Shown: positions 10,235 through 37,167 of the stretch, piece after piece
Numbering within the stretch: the stretch's first letter is position 1
Layout of the letters: every line of letters starts with the position of its first letter
Origin: Candidatus Gastranaerophilales bacterium
Lineage (GTDB): Bacteria > Cyanobacteriota > Vampirovibrionia > Gastranaerophilales > Gastranaerophilaceae
Length of the DNA stretch: 44,821 bases
Reading direction: 5' to 3'
Assembly: GCA_944325535.1 (NCBI GenBank)
Contig: CALVAL010000006.1
Span: 1-44,821 of the forward strand
Notes under the pieces: generated by a model
What the model saw: the letters and a program-made list of their open reading frames with translations, nothing else
Databases searched by the model: none
What the model was told of the DNA's origin: nothing
Made by a program: the position numbers and the translations under genes

Positions 10235-10750
10235 TTATCCGAGACCGAACTTAGGTGCACTTTCTCGGGCTTGTTCGCTAGCCAGTTGTTTTACTGATTC
10301 TAACATAGCTCGTTTCATCTTGATTTGTTGTTCTATATCATTCATTTCAAGTTGAATTTCTTTTTCTTTTTCATTTAATACTTGGATTTCTTGTTGTTTT
10401 AATGCCTTCATTGATTCTTCTTTGAATTTAGAGAATGCACTCATTTCAATTTGGAATTGCATCATAGGGTTTCCAGTGAATGGAACCATTCCCATCATTT
10501 TCATACTCTGTAAGTTTTGCATAGCACTCATAGAGCTTGCTTGATTAGAGAATTGAGCAAACATAGTCGCTCTAGGTAAAAGCTCTGCTGAAATTCCTGC
10601 TATGTTATTCATAGTAAGGATAGAAGATCCGCCTAAGACTCCTGAGTACTTTTGATAATTTGAAAGTCTGTTTCGAGTCTCAATAGCTCGTCTTTCTAGA
10701 GCATTTATTTCACGTGTTAATCTCTGGACTTCCCAGAATGCCATTAACAT
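10235..10750 (-). CDS. Unknown coiled-coil protein, 171 aa, member of the shared-promoter set
   Basis: No known family recognised. The N-terminus (residues 5-33, AFWEVQRLTREINALERRAIETRNRL) and C-terminus (about 100-160, rich in E, K and Q) are strong coiled-coil candidates. They flank a Met/Gln-rich middle (NLQSMKMMGMVPFTGNPMM). No signal peptide. Start alternatives are 10750 (MLMAF) and 10744 (MAF); AGGT lies about 8 bases before the first. It carries the GCAATT-N16-CTTTATATA element and its own terminator. Confidence 0.78.
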   Translation of the reverse strand: MLMAFWEVQRLTREINALERRAIETRNRLSNYQKYSGVLGGSSILTMNNIAGISAELLPRATMFAQFSNQASSMSAMQNLQSMKMMGMVPFTGNPMMQFQIEMSAFSKFKEESMKALKQQEIQVLNEKEKEIQLEMNDIEQQIKMKRAMLESVKQLASEQARESAPKFGLG

Positions 10751-11377: not shown

Positions 11378-11782
11378 TTATGCTGCAAAGATGTTCTTTG
11401 CATTTCTATCTATTTCATATTCATATAATTCGTTTTTTTCATTGTTTTCAGAACTATTTTTAGTTTCAATGATTTTCCATAAATCACCAAGTCTAGGTGC
11501 TTTAGATTTTTCGGAATATTTTGCGTGTGTTTTTAAGTATTTTAATGTTTCTTTTAAACTGTTATTTAAAGTAATTTGTGTAGATGCTTTTAATACAGAA
11601 AGCTGTGGATTAGTATATAGATCTTTCATTTGCTTATCTGCTAAGAATACACTTTTTTCAATAATTTTTTGAGTAGCTTCTGAAGTTGCACCAGTGTTGT
11701 TAAGTATATTTTTTGCGATATTTCTTAAATTTTCTTTATTTTCATATTGATATGAATTTCCAATTGATACGTCAAATCCCAT
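11378..11782 (-). CDS. Unknown 134-aa protein under a sigma-28 promoter
   Basis: No family recognised. It is hydrophilic and mostly helical, with no signal peptide. The N-terminus reads MGFDVSIGNSYQYE; the middle has an amphipathic stretch rich in L, K and T (about 55-85), and the tail is acidic (NSSENNEKNELYEYEIDRN). AAAGGGA lies about 8 bases before the ATG. The promoter is a letter-perfect FliA site, so the product probably belongs to the flagellar or motility regulon, perhaps as a chaperone or filament-related factor (inference). It does not resemble FlgM, FliS or FlgN in the residues I can compare. Confidence 0.78.
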   Translation of the reverse strand: MGFDVSIGNSYQYENKENLRNIAKNILNNTGATSEATQKIIEKSVFLADKQMKDLYTNPQLSVLKASTQITLNNSLKETLKYLKTHAKYSEKSKAPRLGDLWKIIETKNSSENNEKNELYEYEIDRNAKNIFAA

Positions 11783-11818
11783 AATCCGATCCCTTTAATT
11801 ATCCCTTTAGTATTATAG

Positions 11819-11845
11819 TTATCGGCAAAATTTTGGAAAACTTTA
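11819..11845 (-). promoter_or_regulatory. Perfect sigma-28 (FliA) promoter
   Basis: On the minus strand, TAAAGTTT (11845-11838), 11 bases, then GCCGATAA (11826-11819). This is an exact match to the FliA consensus TAAAGTTT-N11-GCCGATAA of enterobacteria. It lies 36 bases upstream of the 134-aa gene. Confidence 0.75.
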
Positions 11846-11899
11846 GGGTTTGTGAATAAAAATTTACAAAAGTTAATATAAAATTTGTTTTACAAATTG

Positions 11900-12057: not shown

Positions 12058-12888
12058 TTATACCAAAATTTCTTTTTCGTTTTTGTAAGTTACATATCCT
12101 AGTGGTGCTGCTGGAGGCTTTTTTAGATACTTAGCTTTTGTATAAATTACTCCTACTTTAGATGGTTGCGAGGCAGAAGAATATTTTCTAGCAAGCTTAC
12201 AGCATTCAAAAATAATTTCATCGCTTGGCTCTTTTTCACTTCTTTTTAGTAGTACATGTGAGCCTGCGCATAATCTGGTATGAAACCAAATATCATCGTC
12301 TTTTGCAAGATTTGATACAATATAATCATTTTGTTTATTATTTTTACCGATATAAATATCAAAGCCTTGTATATTTATTTTGGTAATTTCAGATTTATCT
12401 TGTTTTTTCTTATTTGTATTTTCAATATTTAGTTCAGATTTAATATCTTCTAAGTCTTTTATATTTTTTGCAAAATTAATACTGTATAAAATATTTTCTA
12501 AATATTCTTTTTCTATTTTTAATCCAGTTAACATAAGTTCGGATTTTTCTTTAGTAGTTTTTGCTTTTGTGTATAATTTGAAATACCTTTGAGCATTTTC
12601 TTTTAAATTTTTTGTTTCATCTAATTCGATGATTATATTTTTATTGTTTATGTAATCAAAAATTTCTATTTCTTTTTTGTAGTCTTGTTTGAGATATAAA
12701 TTTGCTGTAAGTAATTCTCCATATAATTTGTATTTTTCTGTATTATCTCTTTTTTTTAATAGTGTAGAGATTTTACTTATAGAGTTATTAATTTTATTTA
12801 TTTTAGGGTTAATTATGGAAATTAATCGATGTTTTTCTGAATTTAAGTTTATTTGTTCTTGTATTTCAGAATAATATTTATCAAGCAT
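12058..12888 (-). CDS. rqcH: C-terminal part of an interrupted NFACT protein (RqcH-like)
   Basis: Carries the coiled-coil (about residues 1-165) and the NFACT-R domain (about 168-276), including IYIGKNNKQNDYIV, DDDIWFHTRLCAGSHVLLK and KKPPAAPLGYVTYK, all well kept. It lies in the same reading frame as the N-terminal part at 12931-13578, separated by 14 codons. The frame is broken by TAA, then five sense codons, then TGA. No Shine-Dalgarno precedes its first ATG, so independent translation is doubtful. In the family, RqcH binds 60S-like 50S-nascent chain complexes and adds alanine tails to stalled peptides. Either a recent pseudogene or a split protein. Confidence 0.75.
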   Translation of the reverse strand: MLDKYYSEIQEQINLNSEKHRLISIINPKINKINNSISKISTLLKKRDNTEKYKLYGELLTANLYLKQDYKKEIEIFDYINNKNIIIELDETKNLKENAQRYFKLYTKAKTTKEKSELMLTGLKIEKEYLENILYSINFAKNIKDLEDIKSELNIENTNKKKQDKSEITKINIQGFDIYIGKNNKQNDYIVSNLAKDDDIWFHTRLCAGSHVLLKRSEKEPSDEIIFECCKLARKYSSASQPSKVGVIYTKAKYLKKPPAAPLGYVTYKNEKEILV

Positions 12889-12930
12889 TTTATTTACAGA
12901 ATTTTTAGTTTTTCAATTATGTAATAATTC

Positions 12931-13578
12931 TTAGATTAGTTTATATCTTTCGTTTAAAATCGCTGGTCTGAAAGTTTCAGTTGTAATATATTGGTTGATT
13001 TCATCTACTGATAGACCTTTAAACTGTAATTTTAATTCATTGGATAAACTATTAGATGCTGGAGGGTAAATGTATCGCAATCCGCCTTGAAGTTCTCTAT
13101 ACCTACTTTTTTCTGCTCCTACATTATGCGCACAGCCAATAATTATAGATGATTCTCTGTCATATAAAATGACATTTGAATGTTTTCCCATAAGTTCGAT
13201 ACATAAACAAAGAGAACGTTTTTGAGAAAATTCATCCATTGTTTCAAAATGGAATTCTAAGATTCTTTCATTTTCAATTACTTTTGCATCAGAAATTCTA
13301 CAACCTTCTAAATATTTTCTTAAAAGCATACAAAACATTGGTGGCTTTTGAGGAATAACCAGATTCCTTTTTTCAAGATTTTCAGTTGATGCAAAACAAA
13401 TATGATAAATTTGAGGATTAATATTGATATAAAGTTTTCGACTTTCAGCATTATTTCTAAGAGAAAAAATAAAATCTTTTCTTGTAGGTTGTTGAATTTT
13501 TTGAAGTCTTGCTCCAATAAAAAAATCAATGTTCTCAATAAAAAAAGCTTTTAATGTTAAAAAATCAATATTTATCAT
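12931..13578 (-). CDS. rqcH: N-terminal part of an interrupted NFACT protein (RqcH-like)
   Basis: Holds the NFACT-N domain: it starts MINIDFLTLKAFF, has GARLQKIQQPTRKDFIFSLRN and the family signature FCMLLRKYLEGCRI, then the IELMGKHSNVILYD strand (all intact). Translation ends at TAA at 12931-12933, just where the coiled-coil linker should begin; a full-length protein would be about 506 residues, near the short end for RqcH. The ATG shares one base with the upstream stop (TAATG), and GAGG lies 8 bases before it, so it is coupled to the small exported protein gene. See the C-terminal part at 12058-12888. Confidence 0.8.
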   Translation of the reverse strand: MINIDFLTLKAFFIENIDFFIGARLQKIQQPTRKDFIFSLRNNAESRKLYININPQIYHICFASTENLEKRNLVIPQKPPMFCMLLRKYLEGCRISDAKVIENERILEFHFETMDEFSQKRSLCLCIELMGKHSNVILYDRESSIIIGCAHNVGAEKSRYRELQGGLRYIYPPASNSLSNELKLQFKGLSVDEINQYITTETFRPAILNERYKLI

Positions 13579-34368: not shown

Positions 34369-35699
34369 TGAAAATTATTGAATTAATAGAGAAGAAGAAA
34401 AAAGGAAAGCAACATTCAGAAGAAGAAATTAAGTTTTTAATTAATTCTTTTGTTGATGGTTCGGCTTCTGATGCTCAAATGGCAGCTTGGCTAATGGCAG
34501 TATCTTTTAGCGGGCTAACAGAAAAAGAGACTGCTTTTCTAACAGAAGCATTAGCTTATTCCGGTAAGGTTATCGATTTTGAAGAGTTAAAAGATGCAAT
34601 AGTTGATAAGCATTCTACAGGTGGTGTTGGAGATAAAGTAACAATTACTCTAATTCCACTTCTTGCTGCTGCAGGGGTGCCAATAGCTAAAATTTCTGAT
34701 AGAGGAATTGGACATGCTGCAGGTACTGTTGATAAATTAGAATCAATACCTCATATGAATACAATCTTTTCTATTGATGAAATTTCTCATCAAGTAAAGG
34801 AACATAATGCTATTATAGCTTCACAAGATGAAAATTTGGCGCCTGCTGATAAAAAGTTACAAGCTCTTAGAAATATTACTGCAACAACTGATAATATTTC
34901 TTTAATTGCATCGTCAATTTTATCAAAGAAATTTGCTTCTGGAGCAAGTAAGATAGTGCTTGATGTAAAATATGGTTCAGGAGCTTTTATGAAAACTCCC
35001 GAAGAGGCAATAAATCTTTCTAGATTGATGGTTAATGTTGGTAAGATTTTAAATAAGAGAGTTTTGGCGATTGTAACTTCAATGGATGAACCATTAGGGC
35101 GTGCAATTGGAAATTCTATAGAAGTAATAGAATCTATGGAGTTCTTGAAAGGTCATATTGTAGATGGTGACTTGGCTGAACTTACATATTCTATAGCTGA
35201 GACTATTTTAGTTAACTTGGGGCTATATGATGATAGAAAAGAAGCAGGACTGTTCTTAAAAAATCTTATTGATTCCGGTAAAGCTATTGAAAAATGTAGA
35301 GAGCTTGTCATTGCCCAAGGCGGTGATGTAGAAATAGTAGATAACTATGACAAGTTTGAGCTGCCACATTTCAAAATAGAATGTGAATCTAAAAAAAGTG
35401 GATATGTTCAAAAAATTAATGCTTTTAATATTGCTAAAGCTTCAAAAATATTAGGAGCAAGTAGAGAAAATTCTTCAGATATTATTGATTATAGTGTAGG
35501 AATTTATTTGAATAAGAAAAGTGGAGAATATGTGAAAAAAGGTGAGATTCTTTATACTATTTATTCTAATGATGAAGATAAGACTAGAGTTGCTCAAAAA
35601 CTTTGTGATGATGCTTTTTCTATAAATGAAAATAAGCCTATTCATAATAGTTTAATCTATAAAATAATAAAGACAGAATATGAGGACGATGATGTTTAA
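34368..35699 (+). CDS. pdp: Pyrimidine-nucleoside phosphorylase, GTG start
   Basis: Splits thymidine, deoxyuridine or uridine with phosphate. Family signature DKHSTGGVGDK (80-90) binds phosphate. The usual GHTGGTLDKLESIPG reads GHAAGTVDKLESIPH (115-129), changing part of the substrate loop. Catalytic lysine and serine region ASSILSKKFASGASKIVLDVKYGSGAFMK is intact. 443 aa, standard. GTG at 34368 overlaps the skp stop (TAGTG) with AGGAAG just before it. Probably cotranscribed with bamA-skp. deoA is the other common name. Confidence 0.93.
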   Translation: MKIIELIEKKKKGKQHSEEEIKFLINSFVDGSASDAQMAAWLMAVSFSGLTEKETAFLTEALAYSGKVIDFEELKDAIVDKHSTGGVGDKVTITLIPLLAAAGVPIAKISDRGIGHAAGTVDKLESIPHMNTIFSIDEISHQVKEHNAIIASQDENLAPADKKLQALRNITATTDNISLIASSILSKKFASGASKIVLDVKYGSGAFMKTPEEAINLSRLMVNVGKILNKRVLAIVTSMDEPLGRAIGNSIEVIESMEFLKGHIVDGDLAELTYSIAETILVNLGLYDDRKEAGLFLKNLIDSGKAIEKCRELVIAQGGDVEIVDNYDKFELPHFKIECESKKSGYVQKINAFNIAKASKILGASRENSSDIIDYSVGIYLNKKSGEYVKKGEILYTIYSNDEDKTRVAQKLCDDAFSINENKPIHNSLIYKIIKTEYEDDDV

Positions 35700-37167
35700 T
35701 AAAAAAATGCAGTATGTAATAAAGTCAGTTCCAACAGATGATAAACAGGCTTTGGAAAATTTATTAAATGAAATGTCTGACGCAGGTTGGGATTTATATA
35801 CAATGCATGAAGTAGAAACAGATACTTCTTTTGATTTTAACTGTATTTTTATGAGAGAAAAGCAGGATGAAGATTCTACAGATTTAGATGATATTGTTAA
35901 TATAACAAGTTTTAAGTATCGAATGGAAAAAATGCTTGCAGCTCCATCTAGTCCATATGCTTCTTGTAAAGAAATTCAATTAAAAATTTCTAATCAAAAA
36001 GAAAGAATAAAAAAGATAAAGTCTCAGCTTGAGAATGAGAACCTTTCTCCTGAGAAAAAGAATCAACTTAATAATCAAATGTCTGATGAATTAAAGCAAT
36101 TATCTATTCTAAAGCAACAGTTGATTAATGAAATTTCTCCAGAATCTATGTATTCAAATATAAAAGAGGAGAAGTTTGTAGTAAATCTTTCTGAGGAAAT
36201 TTTAGAGGTGATTTCTATGGAAGCAAGTGATGATAATTTACTTGCTGAGACTGTAAAAATACGTCAAGATTTAGCAGAAAAGTTAGGTTATGTAATACCG
36301 CATATACATTTTCATAATAGTGATGAGCTTATGCAAAATGAATTTTGTATAAAAATTCATGATATTGAATCTTTTCGTTCTGTAGTTTTTCCTGATTGTA
36401 TAGCTTTTTACAAGGATGATATTAAAGGCTATAAACCAACAAATGAAGATTATATAGTTGATGATTATATAACAGGTAAAAAACTAATATGGATTTCAAA
36501 AGATAAGGTAAAAGATTTTTGGGCTCAAGGCTATACAGCTTCAGAATATATAGGTAAAGCAATAGAATACATTGCAAAAAAAGAAGTTTCAGATATTATG
36601 GATTATAATGATGTCAATAAATATGTAGAAAAGGTCATTGAAACGAATTCTTTTCTTGTAGATAACATAATTCCTGATTTTATTACAGCTTCTGATTTGA
36701 AGTATTTACTTACTTGTCTTATTCGAGAAAATGTTTCTGTAAAAAATATAGTCTATATTTTCGAAAAAATTAATGATTATGCTAATGAACCTACAAAAGA
36801 AGATTTACTTGATAAAGTAAGGCTTGCTCTTTCTAAGCATATAATTAAAGATTTAGCTGTCGATGGCGAACTAAAAGTTATAGAATTAAGTGAAGATATC
36901 TTAGATAAGGTCTATTCATTCTTTAAAGAAGATGAAGAAGATAATGATATGATAATAAGGATAGAAGCAACAGAAGTACAAGATATTGCAGCTAAAATTG
37001 CAAAATTTGCTAAATCTAAAAAGATTACTAATCCAACAATAGTTGTTCCTATGGATATTAGACATATGATGTTTGTAATCTTATCTGAGTTTGTACAAAA
37101 CTTAACAGTATTAGCTTATGAAGAGTTGGTAAGTAATGCAAATATAAAATTTATTGGTAAAATTTAA
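35692..37167 (+). CDS. Soluble FlhA C-domain-like (FHIPEP) protein with DUF4177-like start, 491 aa
   Basis: Residues about 1-50 (MQYVIKSVPTDDKQALENLLNEMSDAGWDLYTM) resemble the small DUF4177 domain; about 70-135 is coiled coil. From about 180 to the end the order matches the cytoplasmic domain of the export-gate protein FlhA: IRQDLAEKLGYVIPHIHFHN, CIKIHDIE, FLVDNIIPDFITASDLKYLLTCLIRENVSVKNIVYIFEKINDYA, and a final VLAYEEL...KFIGKI. There is no membrane domain, which FlhA needs. So it is a soluble paralogue, perhaps docking export substrates. I prefer ATG 35692 (GAGG 6 bases before) over 35680. Overlaps pdp by 8 bases. Confidence 0.85.
   Translation: MFNKKMQYVIKSVPTDDKQALENLLNEMSDAGWDLYTMHEVETDTSFDFNCIFMREKQDEDSTDLDDIVNITSFKYRMEKMLAAPSSPYASCKEIQLKISNQKERIKKIKSQLENENLSPEKKNQLNNQMSDELKQLSILKQQLINEISPESMYSNIKEEKFVVNLSEEILEVISMEASDDNLLAETVKIRQDLAEKLGYVIPHIHFHNSDELMQNEFCIKIHDIESFRSVVFPDCIAFYKDDIKGYKPTNEDYIVDDYITGKKLIWISKDKVKDFWAQGYTASEYIGKAIEYIAKKEVSDIMDYNDVNKYVEKVIETNSFLVDNIIPDFITASDLKYLLTCLIRENVSVKNIVYIFEKINDYANEPTKEDLLDKVRLALSKHIIKDLAVDGELKVIELSEDILDKVYSFFKEDEEDNDMIIRIEATEVQDIAAKIAKFAKSKKITNPTIVVPMDIRHMMFVILSEFVQNLTVLAYEELVSNANIKFIGKI

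Follow-up and report, generated by a model that had tools for sequence, protein, structure and literature searches.

In Escherichia coli, promoters read by the sigma-28 factor FliA follow the consensus TAAAGTTT-n11-GCCGATAA, and at one of them, that of aer, sigma-28 transcription is activator-dependent and sensitive to the helical face (PMC2859248). Genes under sigma-28 control need not encode flagellar parts, as illustrated by the Fed proteins (flagellar co-expressed determinants) of Campylobacter jejuni, which depend on sigma-28 for both production and secretion (PMC5223770). In Chlamydia trachomatis, the factor is retained without a motile flagellum, together with flagellum-type secretion genes, and its regulon has been reported as two genes, hctB and tsp (PMC10597470). 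Gut non-photosynthetic Cyanobacteriota, to which Gastranaerophilales and Melainabacteria belong, include members with flagella and members that have lost them (PMC3787301; PMC4040986).

In this paper, we describe a sigma-28 element in the draft genome (2.0 Mb, here G000) of a Candidatus Gastranaerophilales bacterium. The sequence analysed was contig C6 of this genome, a stretch of 44,821 nucleotides with a G+C content of 30%, referred to hereafter as the window. The element precedes the gene of a 134-aa protein, P0001, which is most likely an accessory, genus-specific member of a FliA regulon.

A sigma-28 element with a phased upstream box

The features of the locus, all on the minus strand, are as follows.

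11863..11870 (-): main half-site TTTGTAAA of the upstream box, a putative activator site, read directly
11872..11878 (-): degenerate first half-site of the box, TATTAAC, from direct reading and orthologue comparison
11838..11845 (-): sigma-28 -35 element TAAAGTTT, an exact match kept in all orthologues examined
11819..11826 (-): sigma-28 -10 element GCCGATAA, an exact match
11808..11814 (-): predicted transcription start region, from a conserved TA 7-8 nt past the -10 element
11378..11782 (-): gene of P0001, 134 aa, with aligned homologues in the genus
10235..10750 (-): gene of a 171-aa protein, a conserved neighbour in the gene order P0001-YhcH-171aa

Read on the minus strand, the 27-bp element at 11819-11845 is TAAAGTTTTCCAAAATTTTGCCGATAA; its two octamers are separated by an A/T-rich spacer of 11 bp and it ends 36 bp before the ATG of the ORF at 11378-11782 (-). 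The initial annotation had described a perfect sigma-28 consensus, and the element does equal that of E. coli at 16 of 16 positions, with no mismatch (PMC2859248). Exact matches are expected by chance 6e-5 times per window and 0.003 times per genome under base or dinucleotide composition; the genome holds six. The search for further copies of the motif and for fliA, proposed together with the annotation, bore it out. Besides the six exact matches, G000 contains 25 sites of the relaxed pattern TAAAGTTT-N11-GCCGWWAW, against one for a reversed-pattern control, and a gene for a FliA-family sigma factor (G000:C31:12692-13354) that scores 231 bits against a cut-off of 189.6. Since the 16-base motif with three mismatches is found at control level, only tight sites were used. 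At the paralogous sites, GCCG is kept in the -10 element and followed by W W A W, and the TA on which the predicted start region is based is conserved in columns 33-34. With -35 and -10 elements ahead of a start codon and a FliA-family sigma factor encoded in the same genome, the element is predicted to be an Esigma28 (FliA) promoter, the class being assigned from sequence.

The relaxed pattern occurs 8-37 times per genome in all 34 genus members searched, against 0-1 for the control, and FliA is present in all genus members searched except one incomplete genome. In other genera of the order FliA is encoded as well, and such sites are few or absent. Compared with the FliA promoters of E. coli (PMC2859248), the octamers and their spacing are identical and FliA is likewise encoded, whereas here about 25 single promoters are scattered, mostly ahead of uncharacterised genes, and most of them carry an upstream TGTAA box.

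At the P0001 gene this box, TGTAAA-N4-TTTGTAAC, lies in helical phase with the sigma-28 element. The half-site TTTGTAAA starts 25 bp upstream of the -35 element, and the first half-site reads TGTAAAG, TATTAAG or TGTTAAG in relatives. An alignment of the 27 tight sites of G000 alone gave TGTAAA-N4-TTTGTAA(A/C) upstream of the element, the second repeat being conserved at G (89%), T (96%) and AA (93%). Among 144 distinct sites, which come from several genomes and are not independent, as many are orthologous (the 27 paralogous promoters of G000 being the independent evidence), 93 have a box that starts at -25 and 14 one that starts a helical turn away, at -35/-36, together 107 of 144; no clear box was seen in 30, and one of 144 shuffled upstream regions passed the same threshold. 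Such phasing is what an activator touching RNA polymerase would need, and the box is most likely the binding site of a putative activator. The aer and trg promoters of E. coli, sigma-28 promoters activated by CRP (PMC2859248), are comparable in having an upstream activator site for which the helical face matters, the activator here being putative. Their site, however, is a CRP palindrome at -49.5, whereas in the present box TGTAA(A/C) is repeated directly every 10 bp, its centre lying near -59 (or -69) relative to the predicted start, and the box is found at most promoters of the regulon rather than at two.

The box is also found ahead of genes that have no sigma-28 site, TGTAA-N5-TGTAA occurring 58 times against 16 in the control, and is therefore not specific to the regulon. 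The same repeat was seen upstream of three flagellin genes (G000:C7:13302, C19:9078 and C37:9840) and ahead of many surface-type genes with a sigma-70-like promoter that often ends in ACTTTATATATA (L198-L227).

P0001 and its neighbours

P0001 contains no cysteine and no signal peptide, is predicted to be helical and has a nearly invariant C-terminal NIFAA. Homologues were found, one copy each, in 55 of 65 genus members, mostly metagenome genomes named Candidatus Gastranaerophilales or Melainabacteria, with a single weak match in a sister genus; P0001 was undetected in the other ten congeners, as it was in every further flagellated genus searched. Assembly gaps may explain some of these ten absences, yet G017 (97% complete) and G075 (99%) are without P0001 and have rod/hook and MotB genes. 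The promoter is kept at all 47 distinct orthologues examined, 39 sites being recovered automatically (at most two mismatches) and eight by eye, at loci where an ATG inside ATGCCGATA, in the -10 region, had been taken for the start codon. At the first 28 orthologous loci, 27 sites have 0-3 mismatches at 11-bp spacing and one is spaced at 12 bp; the two examinations concur wherever they overlap.

Sequence searches of Pfam, NCBIfam and PDB returned no relative of known function. Weak Pfam matches to DsrC and MapZ_EC1 fell under the cut-off and were treated as chance, and PDB profile matches of short helical stretches to V-ATPase subunit E and to affimers were read in the same way. The structure prediction suggested at the outset gave a helical model of low confidence: AlphaFold2 reached pLDDT 57.9 and pTM 0.26 with 28 orthologues, and pLDDT 63.3 and pTM 0.24 with 47. 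A Foldseek search with the model gave no match below E 3.9.

The order P0001-YhcH-171aa is kept in nearly all orthologous loci, and the region upstream of the 171-aa gene itself has no sigma-28 site. The gene on the other side of P0001, encoding an NFACT (Rqc2/FbpA-like) protein, was dismissed as a functional neighbour because its adjacency is not conserved, whereas that of YhcH and the 171-aa gene is. The NFACT reading frame (window 12058-13578, minus strand) consists of two same-frame ORFs with two in-frame stops between them; the gene may be broken or split, or the assembly may be at fault.

The regulon and the flagellar genes

Besides FliA, G000 encodes a canonical FlhA (854.6 bits, above the 772.1 cut-off), eight flagellin-type matches, seven rod/hook C-terminal matches and MotB, and is therefore flagellated by gene content. 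FliA, FlhA, flagellin, rod/hook and MotB were found throughout the order, and every well-assembled congener carries flagellar genes. FlgM (PF04316) was found in none of 28 genomes. The window also encodes, at 35680-37167 (+), a 495-aa protein that corresponds to only the C-terminal cytosolic part of FlhA (159 bits against FHIPEP 314-656), without the membrane part; a similar third FHIPEP match is present in most relatives.

The sigma-28 sites lie mostly 15-66 bp ahead of single unrelated genes scattered over the contigs. From sequence they would define a regulon of about 25 genes; roughly a dozen of its families, grouped by reading rather than by a clustering run, recur between species. Those seen behind sites in two or more of the genomes G000, G009 and G013 include P0001, the MSNFTVNGVY, MAETFNLNNF and MTDGIGRLSGYG families, EF-hand-like and LysM proteins, an HD-GYP protein, small proteins of the MYxMWPGCYSF and MxxDEHEMLIEYSEM types, and MG(L/M)(A/S)xxQ(A/I)R proteins, which have helices at both termini. 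Few of the regulon members are motility genes: the HD-GYP protein in three genomes, flagellins in three species and, behind a site in G013, a protein read from its sequence as FliD-like. Most promoter-mates are soluble and lack signal peptides, with EF-hand-like, LysM and coiled-coil proteins among them; one member has a Sec-type N-terminus (L069), and in ten of the longer ones Pfam recognises little besides LysM. Among the 23 regulon proteins that reach 80 aa or more, two have a hydrophobic segment, compared with 59 of 163 background ORFs; cysteine makes up 0.61% of the regulon set and 1.17% of the background, which includes some spurious ORFs. Few hydrophobic segments and low cysteine fit export without Sec, short of proof; the absence of signal peptides is also typical of any cytoplasmic protein, and the HD-GYP and small members may be cytoplasmic. 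Two long coiled-coil-like proteins (L140 7947-10520 and L144 6294-8738) share the C-terminal ending GILGDLEDALG, and only the latter was found behind a sigma-28 site.

It had further been noted that neither flagellin gene in the window has the motif, and the best upstream matches indeed carry 4-5 mismatches. That this reverses the usual arrangement is true of the window and not of the genome, in which one of the eight flagellin-type genes has a site. The C31 flagellin gene, about 1.7 kb from fliA, has TAAAGTTC-N11-ACCGTAAT 46 bp ahead of its start, and the flagellin genes of G006, G008 and G020 have exact sigma-28 sites. At sigma-28-type flagellin promoters the TGTAA box is absent and a second TAAAGTTG stands instead, directly upstream of the -35 element (AACTAAAGTTGTAAAGTT; L172, L173, L174, L131).

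In G046, a relative from a different family whose genome is 87% complete, FliA is encoded (243.7 bits) and eight exact sigma-28 sites are present. In this incomplete genome no flagellin, MotB or canonical FlhA was found; there are only two weak rod/hook matches, and the best FHIPEP match is of a second, divergent type. Three of its sites were found in 331 kb, each with the box in its usual position: two precede signal-less proteins of 2331 aa (RTX-like repeats) and 688 aa (EF-hand-like), and the third precedes a protein with a pilin-like N-terminus. To judge from its gene content, G046 appears to have lost the flagellum and kept the promoter class. Since FliA promoters are kept there without flagellin, MotB or canonical FlhA, the class is not a dependable mark of motility genes in this group. 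G046 has no P0001 gene, and neither have the flagellated genera outside the P0001 genus. The resemblance to C. trachomatis (PMC10597470) lies in a sigma-28 kept without a motile flagellum alongside flagellum-type secretion genes, as seems to be the case in G046; the chlamydial regulon of two genes differs from the 8 sites of G046 and the up to 37 found in the genus.

A second, divergent operon, fliE-fliF-x-fliH-flhA2, was observed at three loci in addition to the genes for canonical flagellar export; one of these loci is in G046, the relative that appears to have lost the flagellum.

L158 3941-9930 (G009:C1): second fliE-fliF-x-fliH-flhA2 operon
L284 3128-10380 (G046:C22): second fliE-fliF-x-fliH-flhA2 operon
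L140 2-1195 (G000:C34): second fliE-fliF-x-fliH-flhA2 operon

Its flhA2-like protein scores 681-698 bits, below the flagellar FlhA and SctV cut-offs.

The role of P0001

P0001 had been put forward as a strong candidate for a new flagellar or chemotaxis component. The regulatory half of that proposal is supported, in that FliA is present and the promoter class is real and conserved at every orthologue examined; a flagellar or chemotaxis role is not supported. A core component would be present wherever the lineage has a flagellum and would resemble a known family, whereas P0001 is confined to one genus, though FliA, FlhA, flagellin, rod/hook and MotB are order-wide, and matched no such family in Pfam, NCBIfam or PDB. 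Most of its promoter-mates are not motility genes, and G046 keeps FliA and the promoter class. Across the order, P0001 would appear to track FliA promoters and not flagella. With a sigma-28 promoter, no identity with a known flagellar part and no Sec signal, it resembles in regulation the Fed proteins of C. jejuni (PMC5223770), to which no homology was seen; Fed secretion is sigma-28-dependent, whereas secretion here is putative.

We favour, with a probability of roughly 0.6, the reading that P0001 serves as an accessory in a FliA-driven regulon linked to secretion of the flagellar type, its own export being putative. The Esigma28 (FliA) promoter and the phased TGTAAA-N4-TTTGTAAC box with its putative activator would together drive the P0001 gene as one unit of the scattered regulon of about 25 genes. 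Once FliA is active, the regulon would provide flagellar-type (type III) export with cargo and helpers, among which P0001 would be a small soluble accessory, either cargo or a chaperone-like helper, and not a structural flagellar or chemotaxis part. A broader version, which we hold only tentatively, is that FliA is the sigma factor of a secretion programme in the order, in which FliA and an activator at the TGTAA box would switch on dozens of export substrates through the canonical machine and/or one built from the second fliE-fliF-fliH-flhA2 set; this programme would outlive the motile flagellum, as in G046, and P0001 would be a genus-specific helper or substrate.

Late flagellar genes often encode small helical proteins, FlgN, FliT and FliS among them, and P0001 might instead belong to the motile flagellum or the chemotaxis apparatus itself, as an accessory protein that arose within the genus, for instance a filament chaperone or a hook-associated or motor-modulating protein. 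Its FliA promoter, the flagellin genes within 2-10 kb of it in several genomes and the rod/hook, MotB, FlhA and flagellin genes of all carriers of adequate completeness speak for this role. We nevertheless consider it rather unlikely, given that several of the ten congeners missing P0001 have FliA sites and flagellar genes, that no other flagellated genus searched has a detectable copy, that searches of Pfam, NCBIfam and PDB sequences showed no resemblance to a flagellar family and that the promoter class persists in G046, where the flagellum is seemingly lost. The want of FlgM in the 28 genomes leaves a slot for a lineage-specific anti-sigma-28 factor, exported and feeding back on FliA, which a small, signal-less, FliA-controlled protein with a conserved C-terminus ending in NIFAA might fill. 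P0001 showed no FlgM family match in Pfam or PDB searches, however; genomes without it (e.g. G017, G018, G021) retain FliA and 11-25 sites, and other genera with FliA have neither P0001 nor FlgM, so that we regard an anti-sigma role as very improbable.

The promoter assignment itself has a competitor, in which another sigma factor or regulator has converged on the sequence and FliA does not read it. The scarcity of such sites in other FliA-bearing genera would agree with this, and the conserved TA-rich stretch after the -10 element could be a second -10. Against it stand the full consensus at the correct 11-bp spacing, the near-universal presence of FliA in the genus, the same element ahead of flagellin genes and fliD in congeners and the conserved GCCG, which sigma-70 promoters do not need; we give this explanation a small chance.

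The composite sigma-28 promoter constitutes a readable regulatory code for uncultured gut Gastranaerophilales, by which otherwise anonymous proteins can be catalogued and studied together. Should their products be exported, the flagellar sigma factor would control secretion in part independently of motility, a point that would bear on the repurposing of flagella and secretion systems and on the effects of these bacteria on their hosts or neighbours.
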